Source: Armatimonadota bacterium (lineage in GTDB: Bacteria; Sysuimicrobiota; Sysuimicrobiia; Sysuimicrobiales; Humicultoraceae). From it: a stretch of 64,000 nucleotides of DNA. The notes beneath the pieces are model-generated. The model made no database searches. It was not told the DNA's origin and saw only the letters and a program-made list of their open reading frames with translations. Shown piece after piece: positions 33,457 through 52,003 of the stretch (positions are counted from its first letter, which is position 1; every line of letters begins with the position of its first letter). The DNA lies in assembly GCA_031459715.1 (NCBI GenBank), contig JAVKIA010000001.1, positions 1 through 64,000 of the forward strand, read 5' to 3'. Position numbers and translations under genes: made by a program.

Positions 33457-34062
33457 TCAGGCAGCCGCGCGTGGCTCCGCCTCCAGCTCGATCCTGGTCC
33501 CCAGCACCTCCAGGAACTTGGCCAGCCAGTCGGGATGAGCCGGCCAGGCGGGTGCAGTGACTAACCGGCCATCCACGTGGGCCCTGTCCACGGGAAGGTC
33601 GACATACCGGCCGCCCGCACGGGTCACGTCAGGACCCACCGCGGGGTAGGCCGAGCAGGCCTTACCCTCGAGCACTCCCGCGGCCGCCAGCACCTGCGGG
33701 CCGTGGCAGATGGCCGCGATGGGCTTGTCCGCCGCCGCGAAGTGACGGACGATCGCCAAGACCGTTTCGTTCAGGCGGATGTATTCGGGGGCGCGCCCGC
33801 CCGGGATGACCAGCGCGTCGTAGTCCTCCGCCTTGATCTCGGCAAACGTGGCATTGAGAGTGAAGTTGTGGCCGGGTTTCTCGCTGTACGTCTGGTCGCC
33901 CTCGAAGTCGTGAACGGCCGTGCGCACCTTCTCCCCGGCCGCCTTGCCCGGGCAGACGGCGTGGACGGTGTGCCCCACCATCTGCAGAGCCTGGAACGGG
34001 ACCATGACCTCGTAGTCTTCCACGAAGTCGCCAACCAGCATCAGGATCCGCCTGGCTCCCAT
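33457..34062 (-). CDS. DJ-1/PfpI-family protein (copy 2)
   Basis: The ATG at 34062 follows GGGGGGAGGACC. The 201-residue protein has [20 protein letters not shown], the Glu region [15 protein letters not shown] and the canonical elbow [14 protein letters not shown] with the reactive Cys. This is the standard PfpI protease/deglycase architecture, closer to the family norm than copy 1 at 19044. Likely carbonyl-stress or protein-repair function, by family. Convergent with glcDE and divergent from nothing nearby; it is followed upstream by the dehydratase gene in the same direction. Confidence 0.87.
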
Positions 34063-34209
34063 GGTCCTCCCCCCTTGCCCGTTTTGCTTGGATGACACCC
34101 ACAGCCAGTCTACGGCGGCAGGTCCGGACTGCCCATCGGTGCTCCGCCTGATTTGTCTCCACCACCGAATGCCGGGTGCTTCTGCAGCGGCCACGGAGGC
34201 GCAAGGCGC

Positions 34210-34620
34210 CTACGATGTAGCCACTCGCAGCCGGTCAATCTTGGCAGCCATGATGAAGTCGTTCTCGGACAGGCCGCCGATGGCGTGGGTGGTCAGAGTG
34301 CAGGTGACCCGGGAATACCGTATGGTGATATCGGGGTGGTGGTTCTCTTCCTCAGCAACGCTGGCCACGGCGTTGACGAAGCTCATAGCCTCTCTGAAGG
34401 TCCGAAACCTGAACGTCCGCCGTATGGACCTGGCTTCCTCGTCCAGGGTCCACCCCGGCACCGCGGCCTGCAGCCGCTGCGCTGCCTCCCGCAGCAGGGG
34501 CGGGATCCCGCCCTCGCAGGGCACACAGCGGCGGGTCGCCAGGTCCACACGGGCCAGCGGCGCCTCCCTTTCTTGCGAGCGGTCGGCCGACTCCATCACG
34601 CACACCTGCACCTTCGTCAT
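34210..34620 (-). CDS. Pterin-4a-carbinolamine dehydratase-like
   Basis: 136 residues from the ATG at 34620; a second ATG nine codons in (MESADRSQE) is equally good. The family core is clear: PLLREAAQRLQAAVPGWTLD, then FRTFREAMSFVNAVASVAEE followed by the catalytic ENHHPDI and VTCTLTTHAIGGLSENDF. CVPCEGG near the start is a common feature of the longer family members. The enzyme dehydrates 4a-hydroxy-tetrahydropterin and can act as a dimerisation cofactor. No aromatic hydroxylase is in the window, so a role in molybdopterin or another pterin pathway is possible. Divergent from the Phd-MGMT gene. Confidence 0.88.
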   Translation of the reverse strand: MTKVQVCVMESADRSQEREAPLARVDLATRRCVPCEGGIPPLLREAAQRLQAAVPGWTLDEEARSIRRTFRFRTFREAMSFVNAVASVAEEENHHPDITIRYSRVTCTLTTHAIGGLSENDFIMAAKIDRLRVATS

Positions 34621-34772
34621 GATGCGTACCGGTCTGCTCCCCATCATGCCCGCAGGTCCGCCGCAGGTCCAGCCTCCGGTTGGAGGGCAAAATGTCTCCC
34701 AAGCGTCGGTCCGCTCATGCCCGCTCGCCTCTGTCGTTGACGGCAGCCACAGCGGTGATACCATAAGGATAA

Positions 34773-34796
34773 ACATAGCCAGAATTCTGGCTATGT
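34773..34796. promoter_or_regulatory. 24-bp perfect palindrome, probable autoregulatory operator
   Basis: Half-site ACATAGCCAGAA followed immediately by its exact reverse complement, centred between 34784 and 34785. It lies 45 bp upstream of the Phd-MGMT start and about 150 bp from the divergent dehydratase gene, in the AT-richest stretch nearby. Phd/YefM antitoxins bind such palindromes to repress their own operon. A fused Phd-like domain directly downstream makes autoregulation the simplest reading. Confidence 0.75.
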
Positions 34797-34840
34797 GTCG
34801 GGCTGGACTGCTCCTGGGCCGGCAGGAGGAGGCGGGCCGA

Positions 34841-35578
34841 ATGAAGATGGTCAACACGGTGGAGCTGAAGAACCGCACCAACGCCCTGCTGCGGCAGGTG
34901 GCCCGGGGGGAGGCGGTAATCGTCACGCGCCGGGGCAAGCCGGTGGCAGCGCTCACCCGGCTGACCGACGCCGGCCTGGAGGAATTCGTCCTGCGGTACG
35001 CCTCCGGGACGGGGGGCGCAGGGGCCGCAGCCGGGCCGCAGCCCGAGACCCCGCCCAGGTACCGATACATGAGCCTGGCCGTACCGTTTGGCACCATCTT
35101 CGTAGCCTACGGGCCGGGTGGTCCGGTGATAGTGCGGCAGGCGAGTTCACCCGCCGCCTTCGAGCGGGAGGCGGAGCGCCTCCTGGGAAGCGCCCCCGCG
35201 GCGGATCCCGAGCCGCCAGCCGACCTGCGGGCCCAGATCCTTAAGGCGATCCGCGACCACGCCCCCTACCGTGGTCCGCTGGACCTCAGCCTGGTCCCGC
35301 CCTTTGAGCGGGCCGTGCTGCAGGCGCTGCGGCGCATCCCCCCCGGCCAGGTGCGCACCTACGGCCAGATCGCGCGGGCGCTGGGCCGGCCGTCGGCCGC
35401 CCGCGCCGTGGGCACGGCCTGCGCCCGAAACCCGCTGCCGCTGCTCATCCCCTGCCACCGGGTCGTACGCAGCGACGGGAAGCTGGGCGGCTACTCGATG
35501 CGCGGGGGCGCAGCCCTGAAGCGGCAACTCCTGGAGGCGGAGGGAGCCCTGCCGGCGCTGCTACCCATCGGGCGGTAG
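34841..35578 (+). CDS. Phd/YefM-like domain fused to O6-alkylguanine-DNA alkyltransferase
   Basis: The ATG at 34841 follows GGAGGAGG; an ATG two codons later is also possible, and the longer frame upstream is non-coding. Residues 1-50 (VNTVELKNRTNALLRQVARG, then EAVIVTRRGKPVAALTRL) match the N-terminal DNA-binding half of Phd/YefM antitoxins. Residues about 75-245 are a complete MGMT: a degenerate N-terminal ribonuclease-like part, then PFERAVLQALRRIPPGQVRT, YGQIARALGRPSAARAVG and the active-site IPCHRVVRSDGKLGGY with the alkyl-acceptor Cys near residue 204. It repairs O6-alkylguanine by suicide transfer. No toxin gene is adjacent. The domain combination is unusual. Confidence 0.87.
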   Translation: MKMVNTVELKNRTNALLRQVARGEAVIVTRRGKPVAALTRLTDAGLEEFVLRYASGTGGAGAAAGPQPETPPRYRYMSLAVPFGTIFVAYGPGGPVIVRQASSPAAFEREAERLLGSAPAADPEPPADLRAQILKAIRDHAPYRGPLDLSLVPPFERAVLQALRRIPPGQVRTYGQIARALGRPSAARAVGTACARNPLPLLIPCHRVVRSDGKLGGYSMRGGAALKRQLLEAEGALPALLPIGR

Positions 35579-37830: not shown

Positions 37831-37853
37831 GGGCATCCACCAGTCTTATGCCC
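37831..37853. promoter_or_regulatory. Inverted repeat in the peptide gene promoter region
   Basis: GGGCAT (37831-37836) and ATGCCC (37848-37853) with an 11-nt spacer; allowing one mismatch the arms extend to 8 bp (TGGGGCAT / ATGCCCAA). It lies between the divergent zinc-ribbon and peptide genes. A plausible operator for the XRE-TPR regulator encoded downstream; inference only. Confidence 0.4.
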
Positions 37854-37957
37854 AAAACCTACTAATGCTAAACCTCTGAAAGGAATCCCCCCGCCGGTGT
37901 GGAACCCGATCAGTGGCGGGTCCCCCAAAGCCTCAACTGCATCTGGGAGGGATGAGC

Positions 37958-38089
37958 ATGGCACAGAGGCTTCGCATGCTGCTGGCTGCAGTGTTGGTGA
38001 CGCTGGCGTTGCTGGGCACGGGAGCTGCGGCGCTGACCGCGCCGCCCGTGCAGATCTCCGGCGGGATGCCCGGAGAGAACGGAGGCTAA
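37958..38089 (+). CDS. 43-residue secreted peptide precursor
   Basis: The ATG at 37958 is 7 nt after GGGAGG; an ATG at 37952 is too close to that site. The product begins MAQRLRMLLAAVLVTLALL, a clear signal peptide with a GTGAAA cleavage region, and ends with LTAPPVQISGGMPGENGG. So only about 18 residues would be released outside the cell. It is short, polar and Gly-rich like the pro-regions of Phr/PapR-type signalling peptides. It lies 71 bp upstream of an XRE-TPR regulator in the same direction, and its stop codon is inside a 12-bp palindrome. This arrangement is what suggests a peptide signal. A non-signalling small secreted protein remains possible. Confidence 0.6.
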   Translation: MAQRLRMLLAAVLVTLALLGTGAAALTAPPVQISGGMPGENGG

Positions 38090-38097
38090 CCGGTTAG
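38086..38097. promoter_or_regulatory. 12-bp perfect palindrome CTAACCGGTTAG
   Basis: It covers the stop codon of the peptide gene and lies about 64 bp upstream of the regulator start. It is a candidate operator for the regulator or a weak stem. No T-run follows, so it is not an intrinsic terminator. Confidence 0.45.
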
Positions 38098-38160
38098 AGG
38101 GAACTTCAGAGGAAGATCGACGCGCGGCGGGGACCCGCCATCCCTGCAGGACGTTTCGGT

Positions 38161-39579
38161 GTGCTCGTCGAACATGACTGCAACATGGTCAAGCAACAGA
38201 AGACAATTGAGAGCGTAGAAGGCGCCCGCTGGATCGTCTCCTTTGGGCAGCGGCTGGAACAGGCCCGCGGTCGGATGGGGCTGACACAGGCAGAGATTGC
38301 CGCAGGCGAGCTCTCCAAGAGCTTTGTCAGCCTGCTGGAGACCGCCCGCTCCTATCCCTCGGTGGAGACCCTGCTCCTGCTGGCCCGTCGGACCGGCACG
38401 TCGGTGGCCGGGCTCCTGATGGACCCCCCAGACCTCCGCCTGGACACGGCCCTGAGCATGATCGCGCTGGCCCGCGACGCAGTGTGGAGGCAGCCGAAGT
38501 GGGCCGAGCGTGTCAGCCGCTTCGCTGAGGAGGTGGCCCCTGGCCTCCCCCTGTGGGCGCGGGCGGAGGCTGCGATCGTTCGCGGCATCGCGGCGACCCT
38601 GGACAATCGCCTTCCCGAGGCGGAGCGGTGGGCCCGTGAGGCGCAGTCGCTGGCGAAAAAGGCGGGGTTCGGGCCGGGGGAGGCGCAGGCGCTTGCCCTG
38701 CTGGGCGACGTAGCCCTGCTGCGCAGGGACTATGCGAGGTCCTTCGATTTGCTCAGCCAGGCAGTGGCCCGCCACCGGGAGACCGGCTCGCTTCGCAGCG
38801 CGCCCGGTGTCAAGGCGCTGATCTGGCTGGCTGCTGCCGCGCTTCGGGTGGGACGAACACGGTTCGCCCGTCGCTGCTGCACGCGGGCCAGGCTCCTGGC
38901 GGTCCGGTTGAACCTCGGAGTGCTCGAGGGACAGGCCCTGTGGGGCCTCGGGTACATCGCCAGGTCGGAGGGGGACCTGCCGAGAGCCGCCAGGCTGCTG
39001 CAGGAGGCACACCGTGCATTTGAATTGGTCGAGGACCTCACCAGCCGTGCCGATGTGCTGATGAACCTGAGCGCCCTCTACCGTGAGCAGGGGCGGCTTG
39101 AGGAGGCGCTCGAGGCGATTCAGCAATCCATCCAGATCATCGAGCAGCGGGGTGACCTGCGGCGACGCAGTGATGCCTATCAGGACCTGGCCGCCGTCCA
39201 CTTGCAAATGGGCCGCCTCCGGGAAGCGGAAGAGGCCGCCAGGCAGGCACTGGCCGACGCAGAGAAGGCGGCCGATCCCAAGCATCGCGCCACGGCCCTG
39301 GCTCTGCTTGGGCGCATCGCCGCCAGGCGGCAGGAGCGGGACCAGGCGGTGCACTACCTGCGCCGGGCCGCCCGGCAGCTCAAGGCCCTCGGGCTGAAGG
39401 ACCTGTGGGCCGAGGTCTCCCGGGACCTGGGCCTCGTGCTTAAGGGGTCGAGCCCCGAGTCGGAAGCGGCGCTCTACCTTACCCAGGCCATCAACCCTGA
39501 GGCGCTGCTGGGCGGGGTCGGCCTGCCACCGGCCGCCGTTCCCACCCGGCGTCGCCGCGCTGCCAGGAACGGCCGCTAG
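38161..39579 (+). CDS. XRE helix-turn-helix / TPR regulator (RRNPP-like)
   Basis: 472 residues from the GTG at 38161, with weak AGGA upstream; the ATG at 38185 is an alternative. Residues about 28-90 are an XRE DNA-binding domain (FGQRLEQARGRMGLTQAEIA, then LSKSFVSLLETARSYPSVET). From about 110 to the end are seven or more TPR-type helix pairs, for example ALALLGDVALLRRDYARSFD and AVHLQMGRLREAEEAARQAL. An XRE domain plus a TPR sensor is the plan of PlcR, PrgX, AimR-type and other peptide receptors. The peptide gene directly upstream supports that reading. A basic tail (TRRRRAARNGR) ends the protein. Confidence 0.82.
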   Translation: MLVEHDCNMVKQQKTIESVEGARWIVSFGQRLEQARGRMGLTQAEIAAGELSKSFVSLLETARSYPSVETLLLLARRTGTSVAGLLMDPPDLRLDTALSMIALARDAVWRQPKWAERVSRFAEEVAPGLPLWARAEAAIVRGIAATLDNRLPEAERWAREAQSLAKKAGFGPGEAQALALLGDVALLRRDYARSFDLLSQAVARHRETGSLRSAPGVKALIWLAAAALRVGRTRFARRCCTRARLLAVRLNLGVLEGQALWGLGYIARSEGDLPRAARLLQEAHRAFELVEDLTSRADVLMNLSALYREQGRLEEALEAIQQSIQIIEQRGDLRRRSDAYQDLAAVHLQMGRLREAEEAARQALADAEKAADPKHRATALALLGRIAARRQERDQAVHYLRRAARQLKALGLKDLWAEVSRDLGLVLKGSSPESEAALYLTQAINPEALLGGVGLPPAAVPTRRRRAARNGR

Positions 39580-48442: not shown

Positions 48443-48514
48443 ATCCCGCCAGGAGTCTTCACGCCTTCGAACGAATCACAGAGAACAATTCTCGCCTGCA
48501 GGGAGGTGGAGGCC

Positions 48515-50092
48515 TTGCGTAAGGTAGCGCTGGCGGTCTTGCTGGCTGTCCTCCTGGCCGCTCCCGGAGTGGCGCAGCAGCCGCGCCGCGGTGGCACCCT
48601 GACCTACATCGTCACCGCCCTACCCCCGTCCTTCGACGGCCACCGCGAAACGACGTTTGCCATGCTCCACCCGGTGAAACCGCACTACAACTACCTGGTG
48701 AAGTTCGACACCCAGAACTACCCCAAGGTGGTGGGGGACCTGGCCGAGTCCTGGACGGCTTCCAACGACGGTCGGACTTACACCTTCAAGATCCGCCGCG
48801 GGGTGAAGTTTCATGACGGCTCGACGCTGACCTCCCGCGACATCAAGGCCACCTTCGACAAGATCATCTTTCCCAAGGAGGGGGTGGTCAGCGCCCGCCA
48901 GGTCATCTATCAGAGTGTGCAGCGGATCGAGGCGCCCGACCCGCAGACCGTCATCTTCCGGCTGAGGTTTGCCGCCCCCAGCTTCGTGGAGAAGCTGGCC
49001 TCACCGTTCAACTTCGTGTACAAGGCGGACATCCTGGAGCGCGACCCCACCTTCTACGAGCGCAACATCATGGGCACGGGGCCCTTCAAGTTTGTGGAGT
49101 ACGTCCGCGGATCACACTGGGTGGGGCGGCGCAACGACGACTACTTCAAGTCGGGGTTGCCCTACCTCGACGGCTACCGGGCTCTGTTCATCAGCAGCCG
49201 CTCGGCCATGATGGCGGCCCTGAAGAGCGGTCAGGCGCTCATCGAGTTCCGTGGCGTCTCACCCGCCGAACGGGACGACCTGGTGAGCACCCTGGGCGAC
49301 AAGATCGCCGTCCAGTCGCAGCCCTGGAACTGCAACCTCATTGTGGCCTTCAACACCAGGAAGAAACCCTTCGATGACGTCCGGTTCCGCCGCGCCCTGA
49401 CCCTGGCGGTGGACCGCTGGGGCGGCTCCGCGGCTCTGAGCAAGATCGCCTTCCTGGGGCCCGTGGGCGCGGTGATGCGGCCGGGGTCCGAGTTTGCCAT
49501 GCCCGAATCGGAGCTGGTCAAGCTGGCGGGCTACGGACGGGATATCACCGCAGCGCGGCAGGAGGCGCGTCGCCTGCTGCGGGAGGCCGGCGTCCCCGAG
49601 GGCTTCACCTTCACCCTGAAGAACCGTTCGGTGGCCATGCCCTACGAGCCGGCCGGAGTCTTCCTGGTGGACCAGTGGCGGCAGGTGGGGCTGAACGTGC
49701 AGCACGTGCAGCAGGAGACCGCCAAGTACCTGGCGGACCAGCGGGCCGGCGACTACGACGCCTCGGTGGACTTCGCCTGCGACTTCATGGACGACCCGGA
49801 CGTGCAGCTGGCCAAATTTGTTTCTGCTGACGTCAGCCCGCTGAACTACGGGGGGTACGTGGACCGCCAGCTGGATGCCCTCTACTTCCGGCAGAGCCGT
49901 ACGGCCAATAAGGCGGAGCGGCTCCGGCTGGTTCACCAGTTCGAGAGGCGGCTGCTGGACGAGCGGGCCTACGCCATGTACGTCCTCTGGTGGCAGCGCA
50001 TCATCCCGTACTGGAAGACGCTGCAGGGCTACAAGACGACCACCAACCACTACGTGGAGCCCGACATGGAGGCCTACTGGCTCAGCCAGTGA
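48515..50092 (+). CDS. Family 5 (peptide-type) ABC substrate-binding protein
   Basis: The TTG at 48515 is 8 nt after GGGAGG and is preferred over the GTG three codons earlier. The 525-residue protein has a signal peptide (KVALAVLLAVLLAAPGVAQQ) and the SBP family 5 start RRGGTLTYIVTALPPSFDGH. DppA/OppA-type marks: AESWTASNDGRTYTFKIRRG, VKFHDGSTLTSRDIKATFDK, and VRFRRALTLAVDRW. Substrates of this class range from peptides to glycosides and nickel; none can be read here. Two permeases follow, but no ATPase genes. Confidence 0.88.
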   Translation: MRKVALAVLLAVLLAAPGVAQQPRRGGTLTYIVTALPPSFDGHRETTFAMLHPVKPHYNYLVKFDTQNYPKVVGDLAESWTASNDGRTYTFKIRRGVKFHDGSTLTSRDIKATFDKIIFPKEGVVSARQVIYQSVQRIEAPDPQTVIFRLRFAAPSFVEKLASPFNFVYKADILERDPTFYERNIMGTGPFKFVEYVRGSHWVGRRNDDYFKSGLPYLDGYRALFISSRSAMMAALKSGQALIEFRGVSPAERDDLVSTLGDKIAVQSQPWNCNLIVAFNTRKKPFDDVRFRRALTLAVDRWGGSAALSKIAFLGPVGAVMRPGSEFAMPESELVKLAGYGRDITAARQEARRLLREAGVPEGFTFTLKNRSVAMPYEPAGVFLVDQWRQVGLNVQHVQQETAKYLADQRAGDYDASVDFACDFMDDPDVQLAKFVSADVSPLNYGGYVDRQLDALYFRQSRTANKAERLRLVHQFERRLLDERAYAMYVLWWQRIIPYWKTLQGYKTTTNHYVEPDMEAYWLSQ

Positions 50093-50152
50093 CGCCCGTG
50101 TCCTGTGCATCATGCGCAGTGACAGGAGTCCCCTCTGCCCCGGGGTGACGGC

Positions 50153-51106
50153 GTGAGCCGCTACATCTTCACCCGCGCGCTACTTGTCCTGCCCACCCTG
50201 CTGGCGGTCGCGGTCCTCATCTTCCTCCTCATGCGCGTCGTCCCCGGCGACATCGTCGAGCTGCGCCTGGTCCTGGGAGGCTCCTACGTCACCCCGGGCG
50301 TGATCGCGGCGGAGCGCGCCCGGCTGGGTCTGGACAGGCCGCTGTGGGATCAGTTTCTGCACTACCTGGTGGGCCTGGCGCGCCTCGACCTGGGGCTGTC
50401 CATGTGGTCGGGAGCTCCGGTAGCTCACGAGATCGGCCTGCGCCTGGCCCTCAGCCTGCAGCTGGCCGTGATGGCCACGCTCATCGCCGTGGCGCTGGCC
50501 GTCCCCCTGGGCACGCTGGCGGCGGTCTATCGGGGGAGCTGGATCGACCAGGCCGTGCAGCTCTTCAGCGTGGCCGGGCTGTCCATCCCGTCTTTCTGGC
50601 TGGGCATCCTGCTCATCCTCTTCTTGCTCTCGGTCTTCAACTACCTCCCTCCGCTGATCTTCACCCCCCTGCTGGTGGACCCCAAGGCCAACCTGGCGCA
50701 GCTCATCTGGCCGGCCCTGGCGGTGGGCTACCGGTACTCCGCCGTGACCACCCGCATGACCCGGTCCGCGCTGCTGGAGGTGCTGCGGGAGGACTACGTG
50801 CGCACCGCCTGGGCCAAGGGCCTGCGGCGGACGGTGATCGTCCGCCGCCACGCCCTGCGCAATGCGCTCCTCCCCGTGGTCACCGTCATCGGCCTGGAGT
50901 TCGCCTTTCTCATCGGCGGGCTGGTGGTGACCGAGCAGGTCTTCAACCTCAACGGCATCGGCAAGCTCACCGTGGAGGCCATCGCCCAGCGAGACTACAC
51001 GCTGATCCAGGGCCTGATGCTGGTCGTGGCCGCCGGCTACATCCTGGCCAACTTCGTGGTCGACGTACTGTACGCGTGGCTGGATCCTCGGATCACGTAC
51101 GGCTGA
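50153..51106 (+). CDS. Peptide-type ABC permease (DppB family)
   Basis: 317 residues, GTG start. Six membrane helices; MSRYIFTRALLVLPTLLAVA start, the loop RMTRSALLEVLREDYVRTAW followed by AKGLRRTVIVRRHALRNALL (EAA motif), and GGLVVTEQVFNLNGIGKLTV. Its stop overlaps the start of the next permease (TGATG), indicating coupled translation. Confidence 0.9.
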   Translation: MSRYIFTRALLVLPTLLAVAVLIFLLMRVVPGDIVELRLVLGGSYVTPGVIAAERARLGLDRPLWDQFLHYLVGLARLDLGLSMWSGAPVAHEIGLRLALSLQLAVMATLIAVALAVPLGTLAAVYRGSWIDQAVQLFSVAGLSIPSFWLGILLILFLLSVFNYLPPLIFTPLLVDPKANLAQLIWPALAVGYRYSAVTTRMTRSALLEVLREDYVRTAWAKGLRRTVIVRRHALRNALLPVVTVIGLEFAFLIGGLVVTEQVFNLNGIGKLTVEAIAQRDYTLIQGLMLVVAAGYILANFVVDVLYAWLDPRITYG

Positions 51107-51999
51107 TGGCCAGCGGCGCGGTGCTGGAGACGACCCGCCTCTCCCCGCCGCCGGGCCGGGCGGGCAGGCGCCCGCTGGCCCGCTTCATCAGGAAGTACCC
51201 CATGGGCACGGTGGGCGCGGTCCTGATCGTGGCCATGCTGCTGGTGGGGGCCTTCGCCGAAGCGGTGGCGCCCTACGATCCGGTGGTCAACGACTTCGGA
51301 GCCATGTTCCAGCGGCCCAGCCGGGCGCACTGGTTCGGCACCGACGCCTTTGGCCGGGACGTGCTCAGCCGCATCCTCTACGGCGCTCGCACGGCCCTGC
51401 TGGTGGGATTCGGCTCCTCCCTCCTGGGGGCCACCGCCGGCGCCCTCCTGGGCGTGGTCAGCGCCTACTTCGGGGGGAGGCTGGACCTGTGGCTGCAGCG
51501 GCTGTTAGACGTCGTCATGGCATTCCCCATCATCATCCTGGCCATGGCGGTGGTCGCCCTTCTGGGGACCGGGACGGTGAACCTGGTCCTGGCCATCGCC
51601 CTCTCCTTCGCCCCGCGGGCCGAGCGCGTGGTGCGGGCCAGCGCCCTGGCGGTGCGGGAGATGGCATACGTGGAGGCGGCGCGAGCAGTGGGAGCGGGAC
51701 CCTGGCGGATCATCTTCCGCCACATGTCGCCCAACGTGGCGGCGCCCTACCTGGTGATGCTCACCGCGTTCCTCGGCCAGGCGATCTTGCTGGAGGCCTC
51801 GCTCTCCTTCCTGGGGTTGGGCGTGGCCGAGCCCACGCCGGCCTGGGGGCTGATGCTGCGCGGTGCCGCCGTGGACTTCGTGCAGCGGGCCCCCTGGATG
51901 GCCATCTTTCCCGGGCTGGCCATCAGTGTGGCCGTGCTGGCCTTCAACGTTCTGGGCGACGCCCTGCGCGACGCCCTGGACCCCAGGCTGCGGGCTTGA
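51106..51999 (+). CDS. Peptide-type ABC permease (DppC family)
   Basis: 297 residues from the ATG at 51106. Has the DppC signature WFGTDAFGRDVLSRILYGAR, SSLLGATAGALLGVVSAYFG, the EAA loop SALAVREMAYVEAARAVGAG and LEASLSFLGLGVAEPTPAWG. Pairs with the permease at 50153. The operon stops here with no DppD/DppF ATPases, so a shared or distant ATPase must serve it. Confidence 0.9.
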   Translation: MASGAVLETTRLSPPPGRAGRRPLARFIRKYPMGTVGAVLIVAMLLVGAFAEAVAPYDPVVNDFGAMFQRPSRAHWFGTDAFGRDVLSRILYGARTALLVGFGSSLLGATAGALLGVVSAYFGGRLDLWLQRLLDVVMAFPIIILAMAVVALLGTGTVNLVLAIALSFAPRAERVVRASALAVREMAYVEAARAVGAGPWRIIFRHMSPNVAAPYLVMLTAFLGQAILLEASLSFLGLGVAEPTPAWGLMLRGAAVDFVQRAPWMAIFPGLAISVAVLAFNVLGDALRDALDPRLRA

Positions 52000-52003
52000 G
52001 GGG

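Follow-up and report, generated by a model that had tools for sequence, protein, structure and literature searches.

RRNPPA signalling has been described for Bacillota and their mobile elements (PMC9765709, PMC10075063, PMC11343458, PMC12700828). In its known members (Rap-Phr, Rgg-SHP, NprR-NprX, PlcR-PapR, PrgX-cCF10 and AimR-AimP), as in the family described here, a small secreted precursor adjoins a TPR receptor of 400-480 residues, the mature unit is C-terminal, pheromone segments are duplicated within genes and several paralogous pairs occur per genome; PlcR and NprR also have the HTH plus TPR plan seen here. Tandem precursors of the Phr3T/Phr105 type likewise hold several pheromone copies each (PMC11343458), whereas identical copies are numerous in the precursors reported below, reaching five, and the lineage lies outside Bacillota. 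RRNPP_detector looks for a precursor of <100 residues with a Shine-Dalgarno (SD) sequence and a secretion signal, located -60 to +400 bp from the receptor, and its survey was limited to complete Firmicutes genomes and viral ones (PMC10075063). The present pair resembles the candidate pairs of that survey in size, adjacency, SD and secretion type. It differs from RRNPPA systems, which belong to Bacillota and their mobile elements, by occurring in other phyla (Sysuimicrobiota and Chloroflexota), by a precursor gene that is constantly upstream of the receptor, by Gly/Pro/Asp-rich tails, by matching generic TPR models only, and by a covarying pairing between the 5′ leader and the intergenic region.

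The phylum Sysuimicrobiota has no cultured members; its bacteria live in soil, sediment and hot springs. The window, meaning the whole 64,000-nucleotide stretch of DNA that was analysed, comes from genome G000 (2.76 Mb), which belongs to Candidatus Sysuimicrobiota (CSP1-3). An earlier sequence-only reading of this DNA had proposed an autocrine peptide signalling pair in a lineage with few such pairs on record; none was found described for Candidatus Sysuimicrobiota in the literature searched. The phylum is named in PMC11604079, where the word 'quorum' is absent, and searches on RRNPP or quorum sensing in Chloroflexi, Chloroflexota and Armatimonadota, mostly among sources other than subscription papers and preprints, gave nothing relevant. 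Elsewhere in the window, in the C-terminal half of the product of 34061-35578 (+), an antitoxin-like domain of the Phd/YefM kind is joined to a 6-O-methylguanine DNA methyltransferase domain; the two domains exceed the Pfam cut-off on a homologue (L212:2910-3644, -), and the fusion is also present in genome G003 (L210).

The precursor gene (37958..38089, +) runs from an ATG at 37958 to a TAA at 38087-38089 and encodes the 43-residue product MAQRLRMLLAAVLVTLALLGTGAAALTAPPVQISGGMPGENGG, in which a short basic n-region (MAQRLR) and a hydrophobic core precede the 18-residue tail TAPPVQISGGMPGENGG. The strong ribosome binding site, signal peptide and tail that had been pointed out earlier are all present: the SD sequence is GGGAGGG (37945..37951, +), also found in the copies of the pair in the same-genus relative G004 ('Armatimonadetes bacterium CSP1-3', contig LDXQ01000030.1), the signal peptide is assigned, as in all precursors, by simple hydropathy rules, and the tail ends in SGGMPGENGG. 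Together with the distance of 95 bp to the receptor gene, these values lie within the RRNPP_detector limits. On the basis of duplicated units in homologous precursors (for example xxVA-GDTGPGQNG), the mature peptide of the window is predicted to be about (S)GGMPGENGG, with the longer form encoded at 38057..38086 (+).

Substitution patterns indicate that the 43-codon frame is translated, as the earlier reading had assumed. Comparison of the window precursor (L001) with its homologues in L014 and L004 gave dN values of 0.16 and 0.31 and dS values of 0.85 and 1.44, respectively, and L009 compared with L010 gave dN 0.08 and dS 0.54. A further pair, L133 and L134 (dN and dS 0.03 each), is too close to discriminate. 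By sequence comparison, the gene product is a translated, secreted-type small protein.

Downstream on the same strand lies a gene for an XRE (HTH_3) plus TPR regulator of 464 residues (38185..39579, +), the predicted intracellular peptide receptor. The proposed domain plan and direction stand, and the proposed gap of 71 bp does not, because the start was moved from GTG 38161 to ATG 38185, which is 95 bp from the precursor gene: the sequence MVKQQK... is conserved in L004 and L005, and the eight residues that precede it are not. HTH_3 occupies residues 24-75 and is followed by a long TPR array in Pfam (TPR_12 at 6e-23, and others), so both length and TPR type are those of a peptide receptor of 250-500 residues. 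The receptor genes of L006, L008, L015, L016, L111 and L117 look leaderless, and some of them carry a -10-like box (TATACT, TACACT) some 10-15 nt upstream of the start, so that a separate promoter for the receptor is probable.

An AlphaFold2 model of the regulator (66-row alignment; pLDDT 93.6, pTM 0.85) consists of an HTH domain and a TPR superhelix. Foldseek searches with this model matched TPR-peptide complexes, with LGN/Pins first; RapF (3ulq) ranked 33rd (E 5.8e-7) and Rap-CSF (4gyo) 49th (E 4.8e-6), and PlcR, NprR and AimR were absent from the best 50 matches. Sequence searches with the regulator returned generic TPR matches only, PADLOC and PHROGs generic HTH or TPR only, and the RRNPPA-specific models (RNPP_C, RapH_N, Rgg C-terminal) were not among the Pfam or NCBIfam matches listed. 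The receptor fold is modelled as a generic TPR superhelix. In L004, a TAG read as Q gives a natural read-through fusion of precursor and receptor; its peptide part is unstructured in the AlphaFold2 model (pLDDT<50), with no docking signal, and the model therefore speaks neither for nor against docking.

In a phylum-wide search, 35 of 43 Sysuimicrobiota genomes had members of the XRE-TPR family. Up to 400 bp upstream of each receptor, we looked for small ORFs that follow an SD sequence, begin with basic residues and contain a hydrophobic stretch. Of 79 distinct receptors from Sysuimicrobiota, 40 have such a secreted small ORF upstream on the same strand under strict rules, a count reached from 46 of 84 by removing L043 (a false hit to a membrane protein) and five Chloroflexota receptors, and 45 of 79 have one under relaxed rules. 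The 45 precursors are spread over 31 of the 43 genomes and L034, a Chloroflexi-labelled record with a receptor that falls within the Sysuimicrobiota tree. The identical scan of 290 ordinary genes (21 stretches, 464 kb, four of the genomes) gave 12 matches, only one of which was not inside another gene (Fisher p = 4e-21). The small ORF beside homologous regulators, whose absence would have told against the proposed pair, is therefore present at the same place far more often than beside ordinary genes (45/79 versus 12/290, p<1e-20).

At the other 34 of 79 Sysuimicrobiota receptors there is no detectable neighbouring precursor, a point against the proposed circuit. These receptors cluster in their own subclades (L086/L045/L044, L015/L016 and several of the GTDB family f4), and thereby provide a built-in negative control. 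In L096, L097, L098 and L101, the XRE-TPR receptors have no small peptide, and a gene for a secreted cupredoxin-like protein lies directly upstream.

The tails themselves carry further information. In 19 precursors, the putative mature unit is present in 2-5 copies. Repeated units of the AGD types are AGDTWPGGG (x2, L110), AGDTGPGQNG (L111), AGDVGPGDS (L112), AGDSLPGGS (L115, L116) and AGDIGPGS (L117), and others are GDDPPDSD (L017), AGHGDGELL (L009-L012; x4 recorded) and ELPGEN (L005). GDDNGPGA is found two, three and five times in L103, L102 and L104, respectively; the copy number of the longer unit GDDNGPGA(V)(Y/L)GLPPL(V/L)PQ differs among these close relatives in the same way, which suggests rapid gain and loss of pheromone copies. 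When copies within one precursor are compared as DNA, most differences are synonymous: in the L110 copies of AGDTWPGGG, six of nine codons differ and the amino acids are unchanged. The C-terminal 9-10 residues of the precursor are thus, by sequence comparison, the selected part.

These repeats bear on the possibility that the small protein is a membrane peptide, such as a type I-like toxin or stress peptide, whose expression the regulator controls and whose tail is no signal. The strong hydrophobic core would fit such a peptide. However, a toxin would not be expected to hold identical hydrophilic units in 2-5 copies with synonymous changes, whereas a multi-copy precursor that is cleaved would; the type of tail goes with receptor clade (see below), and pheromone precursors with repeats are known in Bacillota (PMC11343458). 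We consider the membrane-peptide explanation very improbable, and favour a precursor that is cut to release a pheromone.

In a tree of 78 receptors, peptide types sort by clade. The window type (PGENGG) and the types AGDxxPG, AGHG[DG]GELL, AGxGDxDxFG and GDDNGPGA each occupy a single region of the tree; outside the GDDNGPGA region, tails of the GDD type are restricted to neighbouring f4 lineages and L017. Receptor and tail distances of 42 pairs are correlated (Mantel r 0.75, a value reached in 0 of 2,000 permutations). Tail distance averages 0.77 between same-genome paralogues, compared with 0.74 between random pairs and 0.37 between nearest receptors. Peptide type tracks the receptor clade, not the genome. 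The host genome itself has a second pair (contig 43, L019) with the tail FAGRGDVDSFGAIRN. G004 has the window pair twice, at two contig ends (contigs 11 and 30; L014 and L004), with tails SGGLPGENGG and AAEPPGGNGG; the genes to the left and right of the window pair also flank these copies, which suggests a tandem duplication split by the assembly.

Flanking genes differ between genera, and the pair alone persists. Flank comparison found no immunity or processing genes conserved beside it. This absence, along with the receptor-peptide co-divergence expected of binding partners, argues against a model in which the secreted peptide is a regulated output, bacteriocin-like or for defence, and the regulator senses another ligand. 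Other ligands are possible for XRE-TPR regulators, and the Chloroflexota tails described below end in a Cys pair, as do some cyclic antimicrobial peptides, but we judge this explanation very improbable. Precursor and regulator form a two-gene unit that co-diverges across the phylum. The comparative evidence indicates that the pair is conserved and that its mature peptide is under selection; the multi-copy precursors and the co-divergence go beyond anything that the sequence-only reading had claimed.

Upstream of the precursor gene, the A+T-rich block AAAACCTACTAATGCTAAAC (37854..37873, +) is conserved in both same-genus copies in the alignment and is a candidate promoter or operator. Its own site is the only one in the host genome at up to three mismatches, so that a search for a regulon in this genome through the block returned that single site. 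An A+T-rich element similar to TTAGYAATTRTAG precedes the precursors in L006, L008 and L034, and its reverse complement occurs in G000 and G004; this element, in both orientations, is a candidate operator. The palindromes at 37831-37853 and 38086-38097, to which attention had been drawn earlier, are at chance level, given that perfect 12-bp palindromes number 39 in the window and inverted repeats of the 6+11+6 form number 37. The one at the stop codon, CTAACCGGTTAG, is not conserved in either same-genus copy, and the GGGCAT/ATGCCC inverted repeat is partly kept in them. Scans of the locus for sigma-70 promoters and terminators found nothing.

The window precursor gene is bracketed by complementary elements. 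The 5′-leader element TGGCGGGTCCCC (37914..37925, +) is the exact reverse complement of GGGGACCCGCCA (38129..38140, +), which lies between the two genes. Many loci show perfect leader/intergenic complementarity of 10-15 nt with a locus-specific sequence, the leader element generally lying 25-50 nt 5′ of the start codon; examples are CTGAGAGCCCTCG (L034), CGGGGCGGGTCCC (L005), GGGGGGCACGGGG (L117), GGGCGCGGGGCGC (L113), GTGGCCGTCCGGCCG (L130) and TGCGGCCGTTCGGC (L138). With the AGHG/AGxGD clade and Chloroflexota set aside, 30 loci remain, for which the mean best helix score is 31.4 for own loci, 21.2 for swapped loci and 20.4 for a strand-reversed control. A score of at least 30 is reached by 18 of 30 own loci versus 6.4% of swapped pairs, with a binomial p of about 1e-14 that is overstated because loci are treated as independent. 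The AGHG/AGxGD clade lacks the pairing, and it is weak in Chloroflexota.

Two-sided changes in aligned sets accompany this complementarity: C-G to U-A in L034, U-A to C-G and C-G to U-A in L121, and G-C to A-U in L112 and L117. A G-A mismatch in L004 is a counterexample to covariation. Internal G-U steps occur in L006, L103 and L137, and in several loci the intergenic arm, judged by eye, apparently sits in a hairpin loop, with which local folds agree for L006, L008, L034 and L111. Rfam gave no family above cut-off for the element, and RNAduplex energies for the pairing were over-extended and uninformative. These patterns suggest a long-range RNA helix that would enclose the pheromone ORF and could act through a closed mRNA, attenuation or a 3′-derived RNA. 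We do not favour a DNA operator, or a pair of inverted sites for protein binding, because the elements are non-palindromic and always inverted, their spacing varies with ORF length and the helix has internal G-U steps. An invertible cassette is ruled out by the identical orientation at every locus.

Long-range 5′-3′ pairing around a short hydrophobic ORF is a feature of type I toxin mRNAs (hok, aapA). The resemblance to translationally closed mRNAs such as hok is the other point in favour of a membrane peptide; the ORF described here appears to encode a pheromone precursor instead, and no antisense antitoxin RNA was found at the locus. The ORF could also encode a leader peptide or act as an attenuator, its translation controlling the regulator gene in cis; its upstream, same-strand position would fit this, as would an intergenic region that is structured and can pair with the 5′ leader. 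Such a leader would need neither a signal sequence, nor an SD-plus-signal plan kept in far homologues, nor a repeated tail, and in several homologues the regulator start seems leaderless and has a -10-like box of its own. We regard this explanation as extremely improbable, and retain that of a pheromone gene whose mRNA may form the helix.

Beyond the phylum, searches of viral contigs and plasmids found no relatives of the pair. The receptor family is present in 70 of 177 genomes searched from a Chloroflexota class, where 21 of 37 examined receptors have an upstream secreted small ORF (L164-L168, L176 and L178-L192), all with a tail bracketed by Cys residues, for example ACDPEGSGGHC, AAGPCPPADFGC or KACFTPFPC. 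These tails are possibly cyclic pheromones. In the Chloroflexota loci, leader and intergenic region have complementary blocks in common.

The conserved ORF, the repeats, dN<dS and co-divergence support the peptide signalling pair that had been proposed, and we consider it very probable, from this comparative evidence, that the two genes form a self-sensing peptide circuit. In the mechanism that we propose, the precursor would be exported by Sec and signal peptidase, proteolysis would release the 9-10-residue tail (S)GGMPGENGG, and an Opp-type ABC transporter would re-import it. Peptide binding in the concave groove of the TPR superhelix would then alter DNA binding by the N-terminal HTH, most likely first at the promoter region of the pair itself, 5′ of the precursor gene (block 37854-37873), and also at further targets. 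In clades that have it, the helix between 5′ leader and intergenic region probably adds control of pheromone mRNA translation or stability. The host genome encodes 25 SBP_bac_5 binding proteins, an apparently large capacity for oligopeptide uptake. An Opp/Dpp-type operon with one SBP_bac_5 binding protein and two permeases lies in the window at 48506-52000 (+).

The system appears to work like RRNPP. We do not claim descent from RRNPPA because there is no RRNPPA-specific domain match and RRNPPA receptors are not set apart from other TPR proteins in the structural ranking. The findings suggest that peptide 'quorum sensing' of the Bacillota kind is used by other, poorly known lineages. The chances seem to us evenly balanced that intracellular-receptor peptide signalling is old or widely shared in Terrabacteria outside Bacillota, with a phylum-wide, multi-paralogue network in Sysuimicrobiota, a Cys-bracketed branch in Chloroflexota and RNA-helix gating of pheromone output. 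If confirmed, the covarying pairing would be a layer of RNA control that has no description for pheromone genes in the literature covered. The predicted pheromone sequences would be open to testing for organisms that have never been cultured, and the loci would offer natural receptor-peptide pairs for studying the evolution of specificity. If this interpretation is true, intracellular-receptor peptide quorum sensing would be far more widespread, extending to an uncultured phylum and a class of Chloroflexota.
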